This document shows, in pieces, positions 3,558 through 18,070 of a DNA stretch of 64,000 bases; position 1 is the stretch's first letter, and each line of letters starts with the position of its first letter. Where the stretch lies: contig NZ_CP081870.1 of assembly GCF_022170785.1 (NCBI RefSeq), positions 980,001 to 1,044,000 of the forward strand, given 5' to 3'. The notes beneath the pieces are model-generated. The model saw nothing but the letters and a program-made list of their open reading frames with translations. It did not search any database and was not told the origin of the DNA. The translations under genes were made by a program, and so were the position numbers. Source of the stretch: Rossellomorea marisflavi (GTDB lineage: Bacteria; Bacillota; Bacilli; Bacillales; Bacillaceae_B).

Positions 3558-4880
3558 ATGCAATTGACGATCCATACGGCAGACAAGGATGCGAAAGTCA
3601 TCTCCCATCTGCTTGCGAAGAACCCGGCGAACCTCTACGAGCGGAGCCAGAACGGGCATCTCGTCCGGATGTTCTTCAGCACGTTCCGGGAGGATGAGGT
3701 GGAAGTGACCTTCTTCGTGACACCCGACCCGATTGAACTGTCGAGGGACGGTTCGGAGAAGTATGACATCACTTCCTACATCAATGACCGCGAATTTTCC
3801 GTAAGCAGCATCTTCTGTACGTTCCTGCGCACGGCCCTCGGTACGGCCCTGAACGGCAAACCGAAGGAAGCCTACACGGGGTGGGTGGATCATGCCTTCC
3901 CGTTCACGTTCGAGTTCGGCCCCCTCGCATCCTCCCTGTCAGACGGGGCGATCCGCGAGCTATTCGAGCCCCTTGGATTTGCCGTGGGAATCGACCGGAG
4001 TGAAGGGGAGCCGGCCGCCCGGTTCATCACCTTGAAAGGGAGCACGACCCTGAAGCAAGGACTCAGGCAGCTTTACGTCCTCATCCCGGTCCTTGATCAG
4101 TACAAGCACTACTATATCGATGAAAAAGAAATCGACAAGATTGAGAGATACGGGAAAGGGTGGCTCGACGATCATCCTAAACGCTCCTTCATCCTCCAGC
4201 GGGCCCTCCGCTTCAAGGATGTGTACCGCCATGTTCTTCCCGAGGAAGGGAAAGGAAAGTCAGAGCCGGCCAAACCGAGGCTCAATGATACCCGGTATGA
4301 GTCGATCATCCACGTGGTCAAAGACCTCCAAACGAAATCGAGCGTGGTCGACATGGGCTCAGGGGAAGGAAAGCTGGCCGCACGCCTCGGGTTGGTTCCC
4401 GGAATAGAAGAGATCCTTGCCGTCGAGCCGTCGGAGCAGGCTACTCTTAAGGCGCTGAAGCGTTTCGAGAAAGCGGAAAGTCAGCCGGGGTTCCTGAAAC
4501 CGACGACCGTGATGGGGTCGCTATTCTATTATGATGAGCGCCTTCGGAATAAGGATGTGATCATCCTGTGCGAAGTGATCGAGCATATCGATGAACACCG
4601 CCTGCCGAAGATCATGGAGACGATCCTTGGTGCCTACCGTCCACGCACCCTCCTGATCACGACACCGAACGCCGAGTACAACCGGGTGTACGACATGGGG
4701 GAAGGGTATCGTCATCCCGATCACCGGTTCGAATGGACCCGGGAAGAGTTCCAGACCTGGTGCCGGGAGATGGACCATGAAGAAGCGTATGATATCACCC
4801 ATCAGGGAATCGGCGATTCTCATGACACCCACGGGCAGCCGACGCAGTTTGCCATTTTCACACGAAAGGAGGAAGCATGA
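3558..4880 (+). CDS. hen1: Hen1-type 3'-terminal RNA ribose 2'-O-methyltransferase
   Basis: The 440-residue product methylates the terminal 2'-OH at an RNA break before ligation, so that the repaired RNA cannot be cut again. The N-terminal half (about 1-240) is the Hen1 ligase-activating region. The C-terminal methyltransferase has the SAM motif VVDMGSGEGKLAARL, the metal-site motif CEVIEHIDEHRL, TTPNAEYNRV, and RHPDHRFEWTREEFQTWC. AAGGA precedes the ATG. Its stop overlaps the pnkp start (ATGA), so the two are co-translated and the products form the known bacterial Pnkp/Hen1 complex. Confidence 0.95.
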   Translation: MQLTIHTADKDAKVISHLLAKNPANLYERSQNGHLVRMFFSTFREDEVEVTFFVTPDPIELSRDGSEKYDITSYINDREFSVSSIFCTFLRTALGTALNGKPKEAYTGWVDHAFPFTFEFGPLASSLSDGAIRELFEPLGFAVGIDRSEGEPAARFITLKGSTTLKQGLRQLYVLIPVLDQYKHYYIDEKEIDKIERYGKGWLDDHPKRSFILQRALRFKDVYRHVLPEEGKGKSEPAKPRLNDTRYESIIHVVKDLQTKSSVVDMGSGEGKLAARLGLVPGIEEILAVEPSEQATLKALKRFEKAESQPGFLKPTTVMGSLFYYDERLRNKDVIILCEVIEHIDEHRLPKIMETILGAYRPRTLLITTPNAEYNRVYDMGEGYRHPDHRFEWTREEFQTWCREMDHEEAYDITHQGIGDSHDTHGQPTQFAIFTRKEEA

Positions 4881-7471
4881 TGAAGATCATGATCCCACAT
4901 GCCGGCATCGTCCTTCTCATAGGGCCATCCAATAGCGGCAAGTCGACGCTCCTTCGCGGACTGGTCGAGCAGGACACCCTAGTACCCTCCGAGATCGTGA
5001 GCTCCGATGAGTTCAGGAAGCTCGTCGGAGACGTGGAATTCATCGACTGGAAGGACAGGCCGAAGGAAGAAGCCGATACGCTATTTGAAACGTACCAGCA
5101 GATCTCCAAGGAAGCGTTCGGGATGATGGATGCCGTGATCGGGGCACGCTGCCGCATGAACAAGCTGACGTTCGTCGATGCCACCCATCTGCATCCCGAT
5201 GACCGGAAGCGGTATATCGCCATGGCAAAAGAGAACCACGTTCCCATCGTGGCCCTTATCCTCGACACGGATCAGGACGAACTCCTTGAGCGCGATCTCC
5301 ACCGGGACAACCCCCGGGGGAAACGGCGCATCAAGCAGCAGTACCAGGTTTTCAAGAGGGAAAAGCGCTTCGTGAAGAAAGAAGGCTACCGCTTTGTCTA
5401 TACGGTCCGTCCTTCTGATTCCGTCGAGTGGATCAGGGGAGGTAATTCCTTGGAACTTGATGTAGCAAAGGGGGTCGATATCATCGGAGACGTCCACGGT
5501 TGCTTTGATGAACTAATTGACCTTCTTGTGAAACTGGGCTATGAGGAAAATGAAGACGGACTCTATATCCATCCAGACGGGCGCACATTCCTTTCCCTCG
5601 GCGACATCATGAGCCGTGGCCCGAAGTCTTTTGAGACCATGACCTTTTTCCACACGCATGTGGAGCGGGGGCTTGCCCATATGATCGACAGCAACCATGG
5701 GTGGAAGATCGCGCGATATCTTGGCGGTCGGAACGTCACCTTGAGCCACGGAGATGAGTGGATCGCGGAAACGCTTGAGCGATACGAAGCGGAACACGGG
5801 GAAGAGGCGGCAAATGAGCTGAAAGAAACATGGCGTAGCTTCCTGTTGAGGGCCCCGTCCCATCTAGTGTTGAAGCAAAACGAAGTACCGGTCGCAGTCT
5901 GTGTCCATGCCGGCATCAAGGATGAATTCATCGGGAAGGAGTCCCATGCAATCAGTGACTTCTGCCGGTATGGTGATACCGATGGTTTCCATGAAGACGG
6001 GCGCCCGGTGAGGAAGGATTGGACCGTTCATCATCACAATAGCCTTCTGATCCTATGGGGGCATGATCCGAAACCGAGGCCCCTCATGATGAATAACACC
6101 CTGAATATTGATCAGGGTGCCGTTTTCGGAGGAGAGCTTACGGCCTACCGGTATCCTGAGCGGACGCTGTTATCGGTGAAGGGAAAAACGGACTATTCAG
6201 GCAGTGATTCAAATCCTCTCGAAGAGCTCGAGAAGAAGCGACTCAATCCGCCGAATATCGCCCGATTCCTGAACGGCTACAGCGTGGAGACGGAAACGTA
6301 TGGGGAAGTGGCGATACCGAAGGCGCAGATCATCCCGACGATCGATGCCATCTCCCATTACACGGTCCCTGTCGAAGAACTCATCTACATCCCGCCGACC
6401 ATGAGCCCGACGCCGAAAGCATCGACGGTCGACGGGTTCCTCGAACACCCGCAGGACGCCATCGATTACTACCGTAGTCTTGGCATCAACCGGATGGTGG
6501 CCGAGAAGAAGCATATGGGCAGCAGGGGGATCGTGCTCTTATTCAAGGATGAGGAAGCCGGGAAGCGTGTTATAGGAAGACGAACCCTAGGCGTCATGTA
6601 CACGCGGACGGGTAGACGTTTCTTCCAGGAAAAGGTGGAGGATCGTGTACTTCATATCCTTCATGAAGATCTCGTGAAGGGTGGATATTTCTCACGGTAC
6701 GAGACCGAGTATGTGCTCCTTGATGCCGAGATCATGCCGTGGAACCTGAAGGCGAAGGAACTGATCCATCGCCAATACGCCCACGTGTCGGAGCAGGCGC
6801 TCATGGACCGGGGGAGGCTGACGGAGAAGCTCGCAGCCGCCTTAGGTGAGCATGAAGGGATCAGCGCCTGGCTCACGGAGTATGAAGAAAAGCTTCATCA
6901 TGCCGGCGTGTTCAAGGATGTGTATGAAACCTACTGCTGGGACGTCGAAAGCCTCGACGATATCCAGATCGCCCCGTTCCACGTGCTCGCCCACAGCGGG
7001 GAAACGTTCTTTGATCAGACTCATACATGGCATATGGAAAAGAACCGGGAGTTCGCACGCCTCAGTCATCTTTTCGTGGAGACGGAGTTCAAGGTGATCG
7101 ACGATGAAGCATCGGAGCAGGATGTAATCGATTGGTGGCTCAAGATGACAGCGGACGGACATGAAGGCATCGTCATTAAGCCGGAAACCTTCTTAACGCG
7201 GTCGAAAGGCAAGCTCGTTCAGCCTGCCATCAAGGTGAGAGGACAGAAGTACCTCCATATCATCTACGGCATGGACTATTCGGAGCCCGAGAATCTGGAC
7301 CGCCTAAGAAAACGGAATGTGTCCAAGAAACAAAAGCTTGCCCTCCGGCAGTTCGCCCTCGGCCTTGAAGGCATCAGGCGCTTCGTTGACGGAGAGAGCC
7401 TCGAACGCATACACGAGTGCGCCCTCGGCACACTGGCAAGCAATGCCGATCCGGTCGATCCGAGGTTATGA
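4877..7471 (+). CDS. pnkp: Polynucleotide kinase-phosphatase / RNA ligase (Pnkp)
   Basis: The 864-residue three-domain RNA end-healing and sealing enzyme acts with Hen1. An N-terminal 5'-kinase carries P-loop GPSNSGKS (residues 16-23). A metallophosphatase begins DIIGDVHGCFDE (about 200) with GDIMSRGP and LSHGDEW. The ligase domain carries AEKKHMGSRGIV (motif I lysine, about residue 545) and IVIKPE. The C-terminal module ends RGQKYLHIIYG to LASNADPVDPRL, as in Clostridium thermocellum Pnkp. The phosphatase motif usually reads GDxxDRG; here a serine replaces that aspartate. AAAGGAGG at 4865-4872 drives translation. No third gene follows. Confidence 0.95.
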   Translation: MMKIMIPHAGIVLLIGPSNSGKSTLLRGLVEQDTLVPSEIVSSDEFRKLVGDVEFIDWKDRPKEEADTLFETYQQISKEAFGMMDAVIGARCRMNKLTFVDATHLHPDDRKRYIAMAKENHVPIVALILDTDQDELLERDLHRDNPRGKRRIKQQYQVFKREKRFVKKEGYRFVYTVRPSDSVEWIRGGNSLELDVAKGVDIIGDVHGCFDELIDLLVKLGYEENEDGLYIHPDGRTFLSLGDIMSRGPKSFETMTFFHTHVERGLAHMIDSNHGWKIARYLGGRNVTLSHGDEWIAETLERYEAEHGEEAANELKETWRSFLLRAPSHLVLKQNEVPVAVCVHAGIKDEFIGKESHAISDFCRYGDTDGFHEDGRPVRKDWTVHHHNSLLILWGHDPKPRPLMMNNTLNIDQGAVFGGELTAYRYPERTLLSVKGKTDYSGSDSNPLEELEKKRLNPPNIARFLNGYSVETETYGEVAIPKAQIIPTIDAISHYTVPVEELIYIPPTMSPTPKASTVDGFLEHPQDAIDYYRSLGINRMVAEKKHMGSRGIVLLFKDEEAGKRVIGRRTLGVMYTRTGRRFFQEKVEDRVLHILHEDLVKGGYFSRYETEYVLLDAEIMPWNLKAKELIHRQYAHVSEQALMDRGRLTEKLAAALGEHEGISAWLTEYEEKLHHAGVFKDVYETYCWDVESLDDIQIAPFHVLAHSGETFFDQTHTWHMEKNREFARLSHLFVETEFKVIDDEASEQDVIDWWLKMTADGHEGIVIKPETFLTRSKGKLVQPAIKVRGQKYLHIIYGMDYSEPENLDRLRKRNVSKKQKLALRQFALGLEGIRRFVDGESLERIHECALGTLASNADPVDPRL

Positions 7472-10241: not shown

Positions 10242-10443
10242 GTTGAACATCTCCCGATTGATGTGACTGTCTACTTTATTCCATTGTGGCTTGGGCGTCG
10301 AGGTGGTGAGGTGAAATGCCAGTTTTCATTTAACAGCGAAGCCTGTAAAGAAAAAATGGCATGAAATTAGACGGAACCCCTAGACCCGTTTTGTCCTCTT
10401 CTCAATAAGATGTATGGATGACAGGATAAGGAGGGGTTTAGGT
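10242..10443 (+). other. Leader region of the giant repeat-protein gene
   Basis: This 202-base stretch has no convincing gene. It holds the presumed promoter of the 10444 gene. No sigma-A type promoter of good quality is visible, which would fit a sporulation sigma factor (inference). Confidence 0.3.
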
Positions 10444-13400
10444 TTGGCGTTTCCTAGTAACAATCAATATACTGCGATAGAGGTTGGTGGCGTCCCGCTC
10501 TTTGACGTTTTGGGGGATGAATCCCCCGCTTCGACGGACCTTGTCGGGAATTCGACGTTCCCGACCGGCTTTTTTGCCTATGATGGGACCAACGTTTATT
10601 TCAGGCTACGACTGGAGGCAGATCCGCGTAACACGCAGCTGACTGGTTTCAGGAACTTTTCTTGGGGCGTACTGATCAACACGACAGGCGTTGCAGGAAC
10701 ATACAACTGGCTATTCAATGTGGATGGACTGAACAATCGGGTCAGCTTGATCCAGAACACGATCGTTCAATTCAATTCTTGGACAGATCAGGCGGAAGGG
10801 ACCAATGGCAATGGGGCTCCCAATGTGTCAAGGACCATAACCAATTTCGACTTTGCAAGGGTGGTTCCCGCTGATTCGTCGATCGGAGGTACTCCGGATT
10901 TCTTTTTGGACTGGTATTTACCGGCCAGTGTGTTTTTCTCCACCCTGGGGATCACAGAGGCTTCACTGTTGCGCACCATATATTTTTCATCGGCGAATGC
11001 GAATAATTATAACAAGGACTCCTTGCGTACAAGTGAAGGGTTTTCGTTTGTCAATGCTTTTAGTAATCCCATATCTGCTCAGGATGCTGATATCCGTGCC
11101 CGTCTTGAAACAAATAAGCAGCTCACCGGTGGCCCGACCAGCCTGCTGCTCGGGCAGCAAGCCACGTGGACCGGGACCATCACCGTGAGGAACAATGGGC
11201 AGTCAGCGGCCAATGCCGTGTCTCTGGTTGATCTCATCGGGACAGATGTGGTCAGTTCGTTTGTGGTGGACAGTGTCTCCCAAGGGTTGATCAGTTATAA
11301 TGCACTGACGAAGCAGTTGACGTGGAATGTAGGAAATCTTCCTGCCAACATCCAAGCTACTTTGACGTTCACTCTTACAGGTTCCTACACACTGAGCGGA
11401 CAAAGGCTCCTTGATCGCGTAGTGGCTACGGGACTGGATAGTTTCTCGGGAGGGGTGGTGACTTCCAATACGACCGTTGTGAACGTAAATGTAACAGCTT
11501 CTGCTACGATCAATGGCGTTGTCACCGATCAGGCTACGGGGCTTTTCCTGCCAAATACTACGGTCAATCTCCTACAGGGGGTCACGGTTGTGGCCTCGAC
11601 GATTACGAATGCCATCGGCTTTTATTCCTTCACCAATCTGGTACCGGGGAACTATACAATCGAAGCAGCCAGGGCGACGTATAATACCGCCAGTGTTAAC
11701 ACATCTGTAGCCCCTGGTGCTTCTAATACGGTGAATATCCCGCTACAGCCTCAAACAAGTAGCATTTCGGGGAATGTTTCAAGCGGTGGTCCGATCCTCG
11801 GGGCGACGATCGTCCTCACGAATTCTTCAGGTGTCATCGTGGGTACCACGATCACGGATGCTTTAGGAAATTACTCGTTTGTGGGACTCATACCGGGGCC
11901 ATACAATCTAGCGGTTTCCGCCCCGGCTTTTCAATCTCAGACGATTGGCGTCACGACGGTGGCCAATCAGGCATCGGTCGTGAATGTTACCTTAGTGCCG
12001 AACCCCGGTGCCCTTTCCGGTACGGTACAGGATAGCGTGACCAGTGCACCACTTCCCGGTACCACGGTGGAATTGCTTACATCTACGGGGATCCTCCTCA
12101 ACTCGACGACGACGGATGCAGGGGGCGTCTATACATTCGATGCACTAGCTCCCGGGCTTTATCAGGTAAGGGCGTCGGTTTCAGGATATTCCACGGGTAT
12201 CGTATCGGCATTGGTTGTCTCGGGGTTGACGGCGACAGGGAATCTTCTCCTTTTGCAAAACCCGGGAACGGTGACGGGGCAGGTAAGGGATGCGGCGACT
12301 CTGCTGCCGATACAGGGGGCCACGGTTCAAGTGATCGACGGACAGGGGGTCGTATCGGGGACACTGTCGACCGATGTGACGGGAGTGTATACCTTTGCCT
12401 CCTTGCGTCCAGGTTCGTATTCTCTTATATTTTCGGCACCTGGATATGGAAGTGTAACCAATGGAGCCGTGGTGACGTCCAATGCCATCACGGTTGTGGA
12501 TGCTCCATTGACACGGATAGCAGGAACGTTATCGGGTACCGTGACTGGCCCGGGCAGCCTGCCAATCCCTGGTGCGGTCGTAACGGTGTACGCTAATAAC
12601 GTCCAGATCGCGAGCGTGTTGACGGATCTGGCAGGGAATTACACCGTTCCGGGGCTTTCTCCAGGTTCCTATACCGTCGTGATCGGGGCCAATACGTTCA
12701 CGTCGGCCTCTCTAGGGACATCCATATCAGGTGGAAAGACTACAACGCTTGACGCACTCCTGACTCCAAATCCAGGTACGTTGACTGGAACCATAACCGA
12801 TCAGGGTGCCAATCCCCTATCGGGCGTCTCGGTGACGGTGGCAGCAAGCTCGGGTACGGGAATCATTGTCGCAACGACGGTGACAGGAAATGACGGGACG
12901 TATACGGTCACGGGTCTTGCTCCCGGAAACTACATCGTGGTGGCAAGCAGTCTCAATTTCCAACAAGTTTCGGCTGGCGCCAGTATCGCAGCTGCCGGAA
13001 CGACCGTATTGAACCTATCTCTTGCCAGTGATCCTGGGACCATCTCCGGGGTGATTCTCGACGCCCAGACTGGGAGTCCGATTGCAGGAGCGAATGTACA
13101 GATACGGGTTTTGGATGCAGGGGGCTCTCTTGTCGCCACGGTTCAATCTGCCCCGGACGGTCAATACGTTTTGGGGAATCTTGCACCGGGGGTGTATACC
13201 GTTGTCGCCTCTGCGGTGGACTTCCAGACCAATAGCGCTACGGTACAAGTGTTCCCGAATCTGACGACGGTCGGGAATGTGGCCCTTTTGCCAAATCCGG
13301 GAAGTATTTTCGGCACGGTCACAAGCAGTATCGGCTCAACGCCGATTGGAGGGGCGGTAGTATCGGTCCTGAATAGTAGCGGTCAACTGGTCACGTCCGT

Positions 13401-16400
13401 GCTGACGAACATTGCCGGGAACTTCACCGTATCCGGACTTGCGCCGGATCAATATACCCTATCGGTCCTTTCTCCCGATTTTCAAAATCGCAGTGTGGGC
13501 GCGATCGTCGTTTCGGGCGTCACCACGCCGGTAGCCGTTCAACTGATCCCTGATCCTGGGAGTATTACCGGGTTAGTCACCCCGGCAGTACCGAACACGA
13601 TCTTACAATTAAGGGATAGCAATAACGTCTTCATCGATTCGTTTGCAGCGAACCCTGATGGAACCTTTTCTTTTAATAACTTGGCACCAGGTGTGTACAC
13701 AGTCACGGCGAGTGCACCGAACTACTCTTCCGCACAAGCAGGTGCCGTGGTGGTTAGTGGGGAGACAGATGTCATCGCACTGACCATCTTACCGAATCCC
13801 GCCACCATAACGGGCACCATCACGACAACCGGCGGGGTGCCGCTTCCGACCTCATTCGTTCAAGTGTTGAATCCGATAGGCATCTTGGTGGCTTCAGGTT
13901 TTTCTGACGCCAACGGAGTCTATACGGTGGGGAATCTTCCGGCGGGCTCTTATACGGTAGTGGGCAATGCGGTCAATTTTGGTCAGGCGTCACAAGGCGT
14001 AACGCTGACAGCAGGGCAAATCCTGCCGGATGTGAACTTCACGCTCCTGGCGGATACAGGGGGCTTGACTGGTCAGGTAACGGATGCGTTTACGGGTACC
14101 CTCTTGTCAGGAGCCACGGTTGTCATATCGGATGCCACGACACAGCTTCCCGTTATCACCACCACCACCTCTTTGTTCGGGAACTTCCTTGTGAGTGGTC
14201 TGGCTCCTGGAACCTATATTGTGACAGCTTCCCTGACCGGATATGCCTCCCAACAAGTCGGAGCGATCGTTGTCAGCGATCAGAACGGCATCGTCCACTT
14301 ATTCCTCACCCCTGATCCAGGGACCATTGAAGGGACGGTGGTGGATACGCTGGGGAATCCTGTATCGGGCACAAATATTCTGATCACCGTCGTGAATGAA
14401 GACAATGTCATTGTCGCTACAGTCCTGGCCAATTCAGATGGGACGTATCAGATTCCACAGTTGCTGCAGGGGACGTATTTTATCACAGCAAGTGCTACTG
14501 GATTTGCATCTTCAACGGTTTCAGCGATTGTAACAAGTGCACAGACCATCCCAGTCACGAATGTCCTTACTCCGAATCCTGTTGCCGTTACAGCAACCGT
14601 CCTTATAGTGGGATCGTCTACACCAATTGGAGGATCCCAAGTACAGGTCAAATCATCAAACAATATTGTCATTGCCTCTGGAACGACCGATTCTTCAGGT
14701 CAGGTGACGTTTCAAGGTCTTCCTGCAGGTACCTTATACTTTACAGCGGATGCTGTAGATTTTGGGACCGATTCCAAAACGGTCTTTGCAGGACCTGGAG
14801 ATGTTCTGACGGTTGAACTATTCCTGCGAGATGATCCGGGTCAAGTGGTAGGGATTGTGACCAATTTGCCTACAGGAGCATCCGTCCCGAACGCTACCGT
14901 GACCCTTAGGAATGTAGCCGGGGTCAATGTATCCACTGCATTGACAAATGATTCTGGCCAATACTCCTTTACAGGAGTGACTCCGGGCACTTACACCGTT
15001 ATAGCCAATGCCGCGAATTTCGGACCTGAGTTGTCAGGTGTAACGGTTGCGCCCAATATCGTAAGCAATGTCAGCTTTGCCCTCCAGCCTAATCCGGGGG
15101 TGATTCAAGGAACGGTGCGTGATGCGGGAACCAATCTGCCGATCCCGAATGCCACCGTGACAATCCGGCAGTTCTCTGGAGATGGGCCGATCATAACAAC
15201 GACTCTCACGGATGCGAATGGGTTCTTCCGATCCACTCAATTATCACCAAGGTCCTACGTGGTCGTATCCGGTATCGATGGATATGGGTCAGCCGCCGTG
15301 TCAGCCGATGTCGTCAGCAGTCAGGTGACGACGGTTGAGGTATTCCTCACGCCGAATCCGGGTGCCATCCAAGGAACCATCCTTGATGCTGAGACCCTGC
15401 AGCCGCTAGGCGGGACACTCGTGCGGGTCATCAACAACCAAGGAACCATTATTGCTTCAGTGAATACGGATGCGAATGGCTTCTATTATGCAGGCGGGTT
15501 GCCTCCGGGGGATTATACGGTAGGAGCGGTCAACCCTGTGTACCAGGCGGGCCTGAGTGAAACGTTGATTCAACCGAACGTGACCAATACGGTGAACTTG
15601 CTCTTGCAAGGGAACCCTGCTACGTTGAACGGCCTCGTTTATGATGCCGTGGACGGATCTCCATTGCCGGGTGCGGTGATTGAAATTAGAGTGAGCGGCA
15701 CCAATATCCTCGTTCGGCGAGTGGTATCAGATGGAACTGGTAGATACATTGTTTCCGGATTACCACAAGGTACATTCGACGTAGCGGCACAACTTCAGAA
15801 TTATAAGATCAGTACCAATACGGTGTTCCTTAGCCCTGGTGAAGTGGAGGGTCTTAATATTCCATTAAGTCCATTCCCTGCAACAATCATTGGAACGGTG
15901 GCCGATGCCCTCACGCTAACCCCGATTGCGGGTGCACTTGTCCGTTTGGTCATTCCGAACACGGATATTGAAGTAGGAAGCGTATTGACCGGTGCCGATG
16001 GAACCTATACGTTGAGCAATATACCTGAAGGACAGTATACCCTGACTTTCTCAGCTAATGCCTTTGCTAGTGACGTACAATCCATCACGCTTGAAGAAAA
16101 TGAAGTTGCAACCATCAATGCATTCCTGGACGCTAATCCTTCTACTATTTCTGGCAGGGTGACGGCTCAGGGATCGGGGGCAGGGATTCAAGGGGCTCTT
16201 GTGAGGGTCTTTACTCAGAATGGTGCCTTTGTGACGAGTACGTTGACGGATGCAAATGGCTTTTATGAACTACCGGGTATCAGGGAAGGAACCTATTCCG
16301 TGATCTACAGCGCGACCGGATTTGGAACGACTCTCAGGACGATTCCCTTACCTGCCGGAACGAGTGTTACCGTGGATGTATCCCTTGTGCAGGATACTGC

Positions 16401-18036
16401 CTCCATCCAAGGCACCGTTCGGGATGCTGCGAACGGACTTCCACTTCCATCGGCACTCGTACAGATATTCGTGGTAGGGACCACAATCCCTGTTGCATCC
16501 GTCCTGACGAACCAACAAGGGGGCTACACCATTGATGGTCTCTTACCCCAAGAATATCGGGTCGTCTATAGTGCCACAAATTATCAATCCCAGACGAACC
16601 TCCTTTTATTCAATCCGGGAGAAGTAAAGACGAATGATGTGGCTTTGGATCGACTTCCATCAAGGATTGAGGGCACCGTCACAGAGGCCGCCAGTGGACT
16701 TCCGATTGCCAATGCATCGGTGACGCTCCTATACAGCGGCTCAGGTATCATTGCGGCAACAGGATTCACCGACCCGAACGGGAATTATGCATTGGATGGG
16801 TTGTCACCAGGTGAGTATACTCTCCGTTTCCAAGCCCCAGGATATGTCACGGGAACGGTCCCGATTGTTCTCGGGCTGAATGAGCGGGTCGTGGTCAATC
16901 AGGCATTGGGACTTGGTTCTGGTACTATTGCGGGATCAGTGAGACGGGCAAGCGACGGTACTCCGATTGTGAACGCACTCGTTCTTGCCTTCACGGTCGC
17001 CGGGCAGCCGATTGGAAGTACCTTGACAGATGTCAATGGGGCATATTTGCTGAGTGGTCTTCCTCAGGGACCGGTGGTCTTGGTTGTAAGGGCCACAGGT
17101 TTTCAATCTGAGAGAAGGGATGTTGCCATCAGGGCTGGTCAAACCGCTCAAGAGGATTTCGCCTTAGTAGCGAATCCTGCAAGCCTAACAGGTTTCATCA
17201 CGGATATCGGGACAGGTGGACCGGTTCCGGGGGCTCTTGTGCAAATCCTTCCCGTTGGTTCAGAAGTTCCTTTCAAATCCACACTGTCCCTTCAAGATGG
17301 GGTCTATCTTCTAATCGGGTTGCCGGCTGGCCGATTTGTGGTACGGGTCAGGGCAGAAGGATATGAAGAGAGGCGGATTGAGGTCACTCTGACAGAGGGG
17401 CAGGTACTTGATCTTGATATTCAACTGGGAGAGATTCCACCAACTCCCCCTCCAACTACACCGCCTGTGATCGAACTGAATGCGGAATGCATCAACGTAA
17501 GCAAAGTCTATGACTGGGTGTTTGCTCCATTCCGGGAAAGTCAAAAGGTCATGATCCCGCCTGACTGCAGGGGAATCGTAGAAGACGCCCTCGCCCTCGG
17601 CGAAGACGTGACAATCTCCTGTAGCACCGGAGCCACAACCTGCCGCGTGATCGGGTACGAGAATGGAAGTCCGGGTGTCGTGAATGTCAGGATTGAGATC
17701 CCGGTCAGCCTGACCCTTGAAACGGAGGACGGGGGCTCGTGCACCATCGACTACCGGGCTTACCTCGACCGTTCCCTTGCCGTTTGCATTCCTGATGGCC
17801 TCAACGCCGGGAACATCGACTGCTCGCTCCTTGAAGTAAAATGCATGGCAGATGGCGGAGTCCTCACCGATCAGTTCTTCGAGATCAACCTCTTGGCCTG
17901 CCTGCAGATCGAGGTCCATGCCAACGTCACCCTGGAGGTTCTCGCTGAATTCTGCTTCCCTCGTGGAAACCCTGAATTCGTCGATCAGGATGCCAATTCC
18001 AGCTGTGACTTTCCGGAATGGCCTCCAAATTGCTAA
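10444..18036 (+). CDS. Giant surface/spore-type protein with 23 carboxypeptidase-regulatory-like repeats
   Basis: The start is TTG at 10444, with AAGGAGGGG correctly spaced, giving MAFPSNNQYTAIEVGGVPLF and 2530 residues; the ATG at 10414 lies upstream of that site. The protein has no signal peptide or anchor. Residues 1-220 form an N-terminal domain (STDLVGNSTFPTGFFAYDG), and about 225-350 a DUF11/CARDB-like beta domain. About 352-2329 holds 23 tandem beta-sandwich repeats of some 86 residues (consensus PGTI.GTV.D...PI.GA.V...TDA.G.Y...L.PG.YTV). A PTPPPTTPP linker and a C-terminal domain of about 190 residues follow. That domain has 12 cysteines, while none is seen earlier. Lack of export signal plus clustered cysteines suggests a mother-cell-made, disulfide-linked spore coat or exosporium filament; this is inference. 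Confidence 0.88.
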   Translation: MAFPSNNQYTAIEVGGVPLFDVLGDESPASTDLVGNSTFPTGFFAYDGTNVYFRLRLEADPRNTQLTGFRNFSWGVLINTTGVAGTYNWLFNVDGLNNRVSLIQNTIVQFNSWTDQAEGTNGNGAPNVSRTITNFDFARVVPADSSIGGTPDFFLDWYLPASVFFSTLGITEASLLRTIYFSSANANNYNKDSLRTSEGFSFVNAFSNPISAQDADIRARLETNKQLTGGPTSLLLGQQATWTGTITVRNNGQSAANAVSLVDLIGTDVVSSFVVDSVSQGLISYNALTKQLTWNVGNLPANIQATLTFTLTGSYTLSGQRLLDRVVATGLDSFSGGVVTSNTTVVNVNVTASATINGVVTDQATGLFLPNTTVNLLQGVTVVASTITNAIGFYSFTNLVPGNYTIEAARATYNTASVNTSVAPGASNTVNIPLQPQTSSISGNVSSGGPILGATIVLTNSSGVIVGTTITDALGNYSFVGLIPGPYNLAVSAPAFQSQTIGVTTVANQASVVNVTLVPNPGALSGTVQDSVTSAPLPGTTVELLTSTGILLNSTTTDAGGVYTFDALAPGLYQVRASVSGYSTGIVSALVVSGLTATGNLLLLQNPGTVTGQVRDAATLLPIQGATVQVIDGQGVVSGTLSTDVTGVYTFASLRPGSYSLIFSAPGYGSVTNGAVVTSNAITVVDAPLTRIAGTLSGTVTGPGSLPIPGAVVTVYANNVQIASVLTDLAGNYTVPGLSPGSYTVVIGANTFTSASLGTSISGGKTTTLDALLTPNPGTLTGTITDQGANPLSGVSVTVAASSGTGIIVATTVTGNDGTYTVTGLAPGNYIVVASSLNFQQVSAGASIAAAGTTVLNLSLASDPGTISGVILDAQTGSPIAGANVQIRVLDAGGSLVATVQSAPDGQYVLGNLAPGVYTVVASAVDFQTNSATVQVFPNLTTVGNVALLPNPGSIFGTVTSSIGSTPIGGAVVSVLNSSGQLVTSVLTNIAGNFTVSGLAPDQYTLSVLSPDFQNRSVGAIVVSGVTTPVAVQLIPDPGSITGLVTPAVPNTILQLRDSNNVFIDSFAANPDGTFSFNNLAPGVYTVTASAPNYSSAQAGAVVVSGETDVIALTILPNPATITGTITTTGGVPLPTSFVQVLNPIGILVASGFSDANGVYTVGNLPAGSYTVVGNAVNFGQASQGVTLTAGQILPDVNFTLLADTGGLTGQVTDAFTGTLLSGATVVISDATTQLPVITTTTSLFGNFLVSGLAPGTYIVTASLTGYASQQVGAIVVSDQNGIVHLFLTPDPGTIEGTVVDTLGNPVSGTNILITVVNEDNVIVATVLANSDGTYQIPQLLQGTYFITASATGFASSTVSAIVTSAQTIPVTNVLTPNPVAVTATVLIVGSSTPIGGSQVQVKSSNNIVIASGTTDSSGQVTFQGLPAGTLYFTADAVDFGTDSKTVFAGPGDVLTVELFLRDDPGQVVGIVTNLPTGASVPNATVTLRNVAGVNVSTALTNDSGQYSFTGVTPGTYTVIANAANFGPELSGVTVAPNIVSNVSFALQPNPGVIQGTVRDAGTNLPIPNATVTIRQFSGDGPIITTTLTDANGFFRSTQLSPRSYVVVSGIDGYGSAAVSADVVSSQVTTVEVFLTPNPGAIQGTILDAETLQPLGGTLVRVINNQGTIIASVNTDANGFYYAGGLPPGDYTVGAVNPVYQAGLSETLIQPNVTNTVNLLLQGNPATLNGLVYDAVDGSPLPGAVIEIRVSGTNILVRRVVSDGTGRYIVSGLPQGTFDVAAQLQNYKISTNTVFLSPGEVEGLNIPLSPFPATIIGTVADALTLTPIAGALVRLVIPNTDIEVGSVLTGADGTYTLSNIPEGQYTLTFSANAFASDVQSITLEENEVATINAFLDANPSTISGRVTAQGSGAGIQGALVRVFTQNGAFVTSTLTDANGFYELPGIREGTYSVIYSATGFGTTLRTIPLPAGTSVTVDVSLVQDTASIQGTVRDAANGLPLPSALVQIFVVGTTIPVASVLTNQQGGYTIDGLLPQEYRVVYSATNYQSQTNLLLFNPGEVKTNDVALDRLPSRIEGTVTEAASGLPIANASVTLLYSGSGIIAATGFTDPNGNYALDGLSPGEYTLRFQAPGYVTGTVPIVLGLNERVVVNQALGLGSGTIAGSVRRASDGTPIVNALVLAFTVAGQPIGSTLTDVNGAYLLSGLPQGPVVLVVRATGFQSERRDVAIRAGQTAQEDFALVANPASLTGFITDIGTGGPVPGALVQILPVGSEVPFKSTLSLQDGVYLLIGLPAGRFVVRVRAEGYEERRIEVTLTEGQVLDLDIQLGEIPPTPPPTTPPVIELNAECINVSKVYDWVFAPFRESQKVMIPPDCRGIVEDALALGEDVTISCSTGATTCRVIGYENGSPGVVNVRIEIPVSLTLETEDGGSCTIDYRAYLDRSLAVCIPDGLNAGNIDCSLLEVKCMADGGVLTDQFFEINLLACLQIEVHANVTLEVLAEFCFPRGNPEFVDQDANSSCDFPEWPPNC
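11496..17431 (+). repeat. 23 tandem repeats encoding carboxypeptidase-regulatory-like domains
   Basis: In-gene tandem array of roughly 258-base units. Protein repeats are clearly homologous (shared GxY/GTY and LxPGxY positions) but DNA identity between units is low by eye, implying old duplications under selection on structure, not recent expansion. Confidence 0.85.
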
Positions 18037-18042
18037 CACATG

Positions 18043-18070
18043 ACCGATCCCGTTTTGGGATCGGTTTTTA
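18043..18070 (+). terminator. terminator of the giant gene
   Basis: ACCGATCCC (18043-18051), loop GTTTT, GGGATCGGT (18057-18065), then TTTTA. Confidence 0.9.

Follow-up and report, generated by a model that had tools for sequence, protein, structure and literature searches.

A giant leaderless repeat protein of Rossellomorea marisflavi with a BMQ_0737-like tail: a candidate shaft of the spore surface

To our knowledge, the known hairs of spore surfaces are either collagen-like (BclA) or polymers of subunits (Ena, whose domains are named DUF3992/DUF4183). BclA is made in the mother cell and has a rod that joins an anchor to a head, and the exosporium-targeting motif of BclA-like proteins is of the PTLPP type. 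Coat and exosporium proteins need no export signal, since the forespore lies inside the mother cell. For the B. megaterium coat protein BMQ_0737, a GFP fusion was placed in the outer layers and was strongly bound by anti-GFP serum, a result that its authors take to mark outermost proteins (PMC4656864), while the anchoring of spore hairs where BxpB is not needed is treated as an open point (PMC4674009).

The gene described here belongs to the 4.31 Mb genome of Rossellomorea marisflavi. The window analysed is a 64-kb stretch of the forward strand of contig NZ_CP081870.1, and coordinates are positions in that window (Table 1). The encoded protein has a molecular weight of 259 kDa and a pI of 4.1. 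A preliminary description of the window had assigned it 2,530 residues and a TTG start, and the reading frame from that TTG to the stop codon is indeed intact. The open frame reaches further upstream to an in-frame ATG (10414..18036, + strand, 2,540 aa counted from this ATG); TTG 10444 is preferred as the start because it is preceded by AAGGAGG and because a start codon is aligned in all 20 Rossellomorea copies of the gene, the 19 others having ATG, GTG or TTG at the matching codon, directly before [A/T/P/Q]FP. A signal peptide, which according to the preliminary description a corrected start might have revealed, emerges neither from the position of the start codon nor from the hydropathy of the start region, where the highest 19-residue value within the first 60 residues is 0.63. 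The protein contains no LPxTG, nor does any of the 19 unsplit Rossellomorea copies within its last 100 residues. Its overall hydropathy maximum (1.91 over 19 residues) is found at residue 586 within a repeat, and it is this position, rather than the score, that argues against a membrane anchor; the earlier statement that signal peptide, sortase motif and membrane anchor are all missing thus stands. None of ten neighbouring genes scanned matched a sporulation family, and the gene neighbourhood is common only within clades. Upstream of the gene, adjacent Hen1_L and PNKP-ligase genes (3558-7471, + strand) form an RNA-repair pair of the bacterial Pnkp/Hen1 type.

Table 1. Features of the long-protein gene and its flanks, with positions in the window.
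Feature	Position	Strand	Basis
Sigma-K-like promoter motif	10384..10412	+	AC (10384-10385), 18 nt, AATAAGATG (10404-10412)
Ribosome-binding site AAGGAGG	10428..10434	+	Sequence; region conserved in the Rossellomorea alignment
Long-protein gene, 2,530 aa	10444..18036	+	TTG start, TAA stop; single intact ORF
Head domain, residues 1-215	10444..11088	+	Conserved across the family; without convincing Pfam match; AF2 model of residues 1-360
DUF11 / Ig-like domain, residues 218-351	11095..11496	+	DUF11 E 8.4e-08 (window); VIA-align to integrin alpha-IIb
Shaft of 23 tandem CarboxypepD_reg-like repeats, residues about 355-2330	11506..17433	+	Pfam, repeat HMM
Proline-rich linker	17434..17487	+	Sequence
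Cys-rich BMQ_0737-like tail, residues 2349-2530, 12 Cys	17488..18033	+	NF052457 match
Intrinsic terminator, 11 pairs, T tail	18042..18066	+	Sequence, 3' of the stop codon

As noted in the preliminary description, the gene has no clear sigma-A promoter: its upstream region holds a single, weak sigma-70-like candidate (9 of 12; 0.5 expected in shuffles). It also holds a motif that, with the letters of the sigma-K consensus as yardstick, looks like a sigma-K-type promoter. The pattern [CA]ATANNNT[AG], which was relaxed post hoc after sight of the alignment, is present at -39 to -51 in all 20 Rossellomorea copies (shuffles of the same 110 upstream bases: mean 3.5, maximum 8 of 20), with AC located 15-18 bases 5' of it in 13 of the 20 (shuffles: mean 0.7, maximum 3); the strict sigma-K form AC-N15-18-CATANNNTA is found in none of the 20. 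Among the 24 other genes of the window, one has the motif between -60 and -35 and five have it anywhere in the 110 upstream bases. The motif is shared by 26 of the 34 named long-gene loci, a set that overlaps the Rossellomorea copies (shuffles: mean 7.0, maximum 13), and is absent from four loci of Fictibacillus, three of Alkalihalobacillus and that of B. horikoshii. Upstream of the short BMQ_0737-type genes discussed below, ACC...[CA]ATA[GA]GAT[AG] was found in 13/13 loci, these being 13 of 29 loci after 15 minus-strand loci and L021 were left out. Because of the post hoc relaxation and the relatedness of the copies, the motif is taken as support rather than proof. A spacing of 14-16 is given for sigma-K promoter elements in PMC517825.

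Behind the head, DUF11 is matched in 20/20 members at E up to 1, and residues 218-351 align with integrin alpha-IIb at a VIA-align Z of 13.5 (rmsd 2.6, 126 aligned). No fold was assigned to the head itself: the VIA-align rows mostly cover residues 218-351 instead, and the label 'DOMON-like', a guess from appearance, was dropped. The 23 CarboxypepD_reg-like units counted earlier were recovered both by Pfam (23 stretches, E 6.8e-301), which also gave matches to SdrD_B and SpaA, and by a purpose-built repeat HMM, at a spacing of 82-88 residues. The repeats are on average 31% identical to each other, with a maximum of 45%. Of the roughly 1,970 shaft residues 6 are Lys, while Cys, Trp and Met are absent, and all 12 Cys of the protein are located in the tail, which bears out the earlier remark that Cys is confined to the protein end. 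Lys is likewise scarce in relatives from other genera (0.15-0.83% in 11 of the 12 checked; 1.85% in L148). Lys-Asn isopeptide cross-links in the shaft were set aside, Lys being nearly absent, and a rod that is both Cys-free and Lys-poor argues against isopeptide or disulfide links along its length and so points to the tail as the likely fixing point.

The tail matches the NCBIfam profile NF052457, 'BMQ_0737 family morphogenetic spore coat protein', at 59.9 bits (E 3.8e-16, hmmscan of the protein), which as a single protein is below the curated cut-off of 71 bits; in the genome search its score was 65.7, or 71.1 with neighbours in frame included. The domain is nearly whole and in order, with profile positions 2-193 of 199 aligned over the tail residues listed in Table 1. 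By this match, the tail and the BMQ_0737 outer-spore-coat domain are related, though divergent. Twenty-two columns are invariant over 19 Rossellomorea tail sequences, two of which are identical. An AF2 model of the tail (pLDDT 81) gave no Foldseek match at E up to 0.001, and no coat or appendage structure is among the structure rows listed for the tail, an absence that carries no weight against such a relation; the alpha-crystallin domain, the best VIA-align candidate, reached a Z of only 4.6 (rmsd 4.8, 85 aligned) and was not assigned. By sequence, no solved structure matched the tail, nor did any Pfam family at E up to 1, and the tails of other members gave weak Pfam matches to DUF5848, DUF3019 and RNaseH_like, none of them an Ena family. 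A relation of the tail to SPOCS (SipL), which looks right by eye, did not stand out from shuffled columns: the hhalign score, obtained with four SPOCS sequences of which one was wrongly cut, was 14.7 vs a mean of 10.8 and a maximum of 17.9 for shuffled columns.

A stand-alone BMQ_0737-type gene is present in the same genome, about 0.99 Mb from the long gene. It encodes 393 aa and scores 76.2 bits; unlike the long protein, its product has neither shaft nor head (as seen in this one sequence). Across Rossellomorea such short genes have open frames of 377-436 aa, and they occur in 18/18 genomes with the long gene vs 10/18 without it (hypergeometric 0.0014, phylogeny not corrected for). The short gene of the present genome is followed by a coiled-coil-looking gene (L070, 7346-8407); likewise, in Cytobacillus spongiae (L201, 9923-20585), the gene after a BMQ_0737-type gene, which is located near glycosyltransferases, miaB, ricA and cotE, has weak coiled-coil-type matches.

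Within Rossellomorea, the head domain was found in 18 of 36 genomes (20 copies), and the other half of the genus is without the long gene. One genome (G012) carries two long copies in tandem, another (G018) one split and one intact copy; in R. marisflavi JCM 11544 (L053/L101) the gene is a single intact frame. Seventeen of the 19 unsplit copies measure 2,515-2,530 aa and the other two 2,069-2,071 aa; the former have 11-12 Cys each and the two short ones 5. All Cys lie within the last 215 residues in 18 of the 19, the remaining copy (L061) having one outside, and all 19 end in a BMQ_0737-type tail.

At larger distances, the head profile was found in 34/397 genomes of the order (31 over nearly the full head), in 20/398 of the class (16 over nearly the full head, 12 of these Brevibacillus) and in 10/299 of the phylum, namely the own genome, G928 (4.5e-50) and eight at 8e-14 or weaker. 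The 34 loci from named genomes belong to Rossellomorea, Metabacillus, Priestia, Thalassobacillus, Sediminibacillus, Fictibacillus, Pseudalkalibacillus, Alkalihalobacillus, Brevibacillus and Bacillus species. Co-occurrence with SpoIVA is uninformative: it is present in each of the order's 34 head-positive genomes, but also in 382/397 overall, which leaves the test without power. One of the 34 named loci is on a 6.9-kb contig filed as a Moorena MAG (L116), which encodes a head 60% identical to the query and is perhaps a misbinned Bacillales contig. Six plasmid records of P. megaterium have the head domain, and plasmid pB of P. megaterium HT517 (L199, 18001-37014) shows three consecutive carboxypeptidase-regulatory-like CDS over >19 kb, perhaps one giant gene in several frames. 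Searches of the literature on BMQ_0737, carboxypeptidase regulatory-like domains, the exosporium, spore appendages and the Rossellomorea spore surface did not return the family among the matches listed.

The tails differ between lineages. Outside Rossellomorea, BMQ_0737-type tails were found in four further genera: L135 (49.5 bits) and L139 (67.7) have them in normal order, and in L136 (86.8) and L144 (85.9), both above the cut-off, the profile match is broken into two stretches and the start motif stands at the end instead, an arrangement read as a circular permutation of the domain. The tails of G145 and G196 resemble this two-stretch type by eye. An HYR tail was identified in L133 by Pfam, and those of L111 and L115 look alike; L141 has another Cys-rich tail, and almost no tail is left in Brevibacillus L119 and L124 or in G195 and G220. 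Fictibacillus and others have a short tail of about 65 residues, for which one alignment gave an hhalign probability of 38% with CotZ/CotY (PF10612) and a score of 28.7 (100 column shuffles: mean 11.0, maximum 24.3), and two further alignments scored 19.3 and 15.7; four single short tails of the Fictibacillus/Alkalihalobacillus type had no Pfam match. In L148, L150 and L151 the last 250 residues hold 1/11, 1/8 and 3/12 of the Cys, respectively, and the shaft of L148 holds 10 Cys.

The leaderless head is a general feature: a start codon lies at most one residue from the head's first position in 76 of 77 head-bearing frames (some genes being counted from two sources), the exception being the outsider L154. 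In L144, the open frame continues for 69 residues ahead of the head and includes a hydrophobic stretch and possible starts, and a start codon is found at the head too. L154 and L192, two distant outsiders whose heads are related, seem by eye to have signal peptides, and L154 ends in a membrane-like segment. A head scan of nine loci identified L186 and L200 as ordinary leaderless members and L191 as a minimal form, and gave no head match at E up to 10 for L163, L164, L187 and L190, despite weak matches in the genome searches. The minimal form (L191, from G928 of another class of the phylum) is a leaderless protein of 372 aa composed of the head, one repeat and a Cys-rich tail, and its gene is flanked by a SPOCS (SipL) gene and another Cys-rich gene. 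Given the outsiders with apparent signal peptides and the leaderless form beside a SPOCS gene, the head is probably an ancient surface domain that, in two lineages, has a leaderless form associated with spore-type genes. The second Cys-rich gene at L191 (2594-3400) encodes, to the eye, an end much like that of the minimal head protein, so that there may be a small family of coat-type tails rich in Cys.

Unbroken frames contain 18, 20, 21, 23, 26, 27, 30, 35, 36, 74 or 76 repeats; a broken Priestia frame (L146/L129) has 37, and two frames with 39 run off the locus. The largest forms (G145, G195, G196 and G220; 74-76 repeats) have frames of 6,778 to 7,162 aa, and a length of exactly 6,778 aa is found in two genomes of one genus. 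Each of the 23 repeats of the R. marisflavi protein pairs best with the repeat of like position in L053, L055, L067, Metabacillus L111, Thalassobacillus L115 and Sediminibacillus L133, at a mean in-register identity of 49-69% vs the 31% found between repeats of the one protein, as in an old array whose repeats are counted. Register is kept for 20/23 repeats in P. abyssalis, for 16 and 15 of 23 in two 18-repeat forms, and for 5 to 15 of 23 in nine other proteins. The alignment with L111 covers 2,335 residues at 52% and ends at the last repeat, which places the exchange of the tail at that point. In three giant forms, a lag of eight repeats gave the highest similarity among the eight lags compared (0.38-0.44 vs 0.31-0.36), which suggests that giant arrays grew by an eight-repeat unit; spread of the array by horizontal transfer between genera is compatible with these data.

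We consider it fairly probable that the protein is a shaft of the spore surface, a single chain of fixed length that is made in the mother cell and anchored by its tail. It would be synthesized late in sporulation from the sigma-K-type promoter to which the upstream motif points and, with the forespore lying within the mother cell, would need no export signal. The C-terminal tail would dock on the outer coat layer, the expected site of the stand-alone BMQ_0737-type protein, and would probably be locked there by disulfides; the 23 beta-sandwich repeats would form a rod of about 90 nm, at about 4 nm per repeat, that keeps the head and the DUF11/Ig-like domain at a distance from the spore, for adhesion or as a spacer. 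The site on the spore, the filament, the disulfide tether and the orientation of the protein are thus what we infer, the filament and its protrusion being read from the architecture. The preliminary description had proposed a disulfide-tethered filament on the spore surface; its location is favoured by the tail relation, the promoter motif, the leaderless heads and the relative beside a SPOCS gene, while the disulfide tether, though plausible, is not general, because two Rossellomorea copies have only 5 Cys, the Brevibacillus copies read are nearly tail-less and in some copies of the Alkalihalobacillus group most Cys lie outside the tail. To the broader reading, that such proteins are a separate class of spore-surface fibre with giant leaderless chains, a conserved head, an inherited and count-controlled array of 18-76 beta-sandwich repeats and lineage-exchanged tails, we would give an even chance; there the array would set the reach of the head, and the tails (BMQ_0737-type, permuted, HYR, possibly CotZ-like) would fit the local coat.

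The spore evidence (tail relation, promoter motif) applies equally to a coat or exosporium protein that stays within its layer as a cross-strut or ruler between coat layers, and the lineage-kept repeat number and cross-genus spacing fit a spacer that bridges a set distance; however, 18 to 76 repeats are large for layer spacing and some members are almost tail-less, so that we hold this arrangement to be unlikely. Less probable still is a vegetative cell-surface adhesin or S-layer-like protein that gets outside via lysis or an unknown leaderless route. CarboxypepD_reg-like repeats are common in exported surface proteins, the Pfam matches to SdrD_B and SpaA point the same way, and of the two outsiders with apparent signal peptides one has a membrane-like end, but this view has to contend with the missing start signal, the lack of LPxTG at the end of the unsplit Rossellomorea copies, the spore-coat-type tail and the sporulation-type promoter motif. 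A repeat gene in decay or drift, with no function of its own, might be seen in the patchy presence within Rossellomorea, in the split copy beside an intact one in G018 and in the split copies of Metabacillus halosaccharovorans (L106) and Priestia (L146); we give this view hardly any credence in light of the near-constant length of 17/19 unsplit Rossellomorea copies and of repeats in register at about 50% identity across several genera.

If the spore-surface shaft is real, it makes testable how spore hairs anchor where BxpB is not needed, and why the array keeps exactly 23 repeats when sequence identity has dropped to about 50%; a natural length series is provided by species with 18, 23, 27, 36 and 74-76 repeats. 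Among known systems, the SdrD_B / SpaA / Cna-B repeat adhesins have the repeat fold class in common with the long protein, which differs in having neither signal peptide nor LPxTG, and its 6 Lys per 23 repeats are too few to provide most repeats with Lys-Asn isopeptide bonds. The anammox S-layer glycoprotein Kustd1514 (NF052345) also comprises many CarboxypepD_reg-like repeats, and the long protein matches its profile with 387.9 bits in 17 stretches, far below the cut-off of 1400 and with the best stretch within the repeats. As a shaft, the protein would resemble the BclA-type nap as a mother-cell-made rod between anchor and head; unlike the collagen nap, it lacks any run of 4 or more Gxx and any PTLPP-type motif, and its proposed anchor is C-terminal, whereas in BclA1 the N-terminal domain directs localisation (PMC4674009). 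The Ena appendages of the B. cereus group are likewise spore-surface fibres, as the fibre proposed here would be, but are helical or ladder-like polymers of subunits (PMC8619143), whereas the long protein would be one giant chain, and the Pfam matches of the family tails, as mentioned above, include no Ena family. If true, a beta-sandwich shaft made of a single chain, with a coat-docking tail that can be exchanged, would represent a further design of spore hair, outside the B. cereus group.
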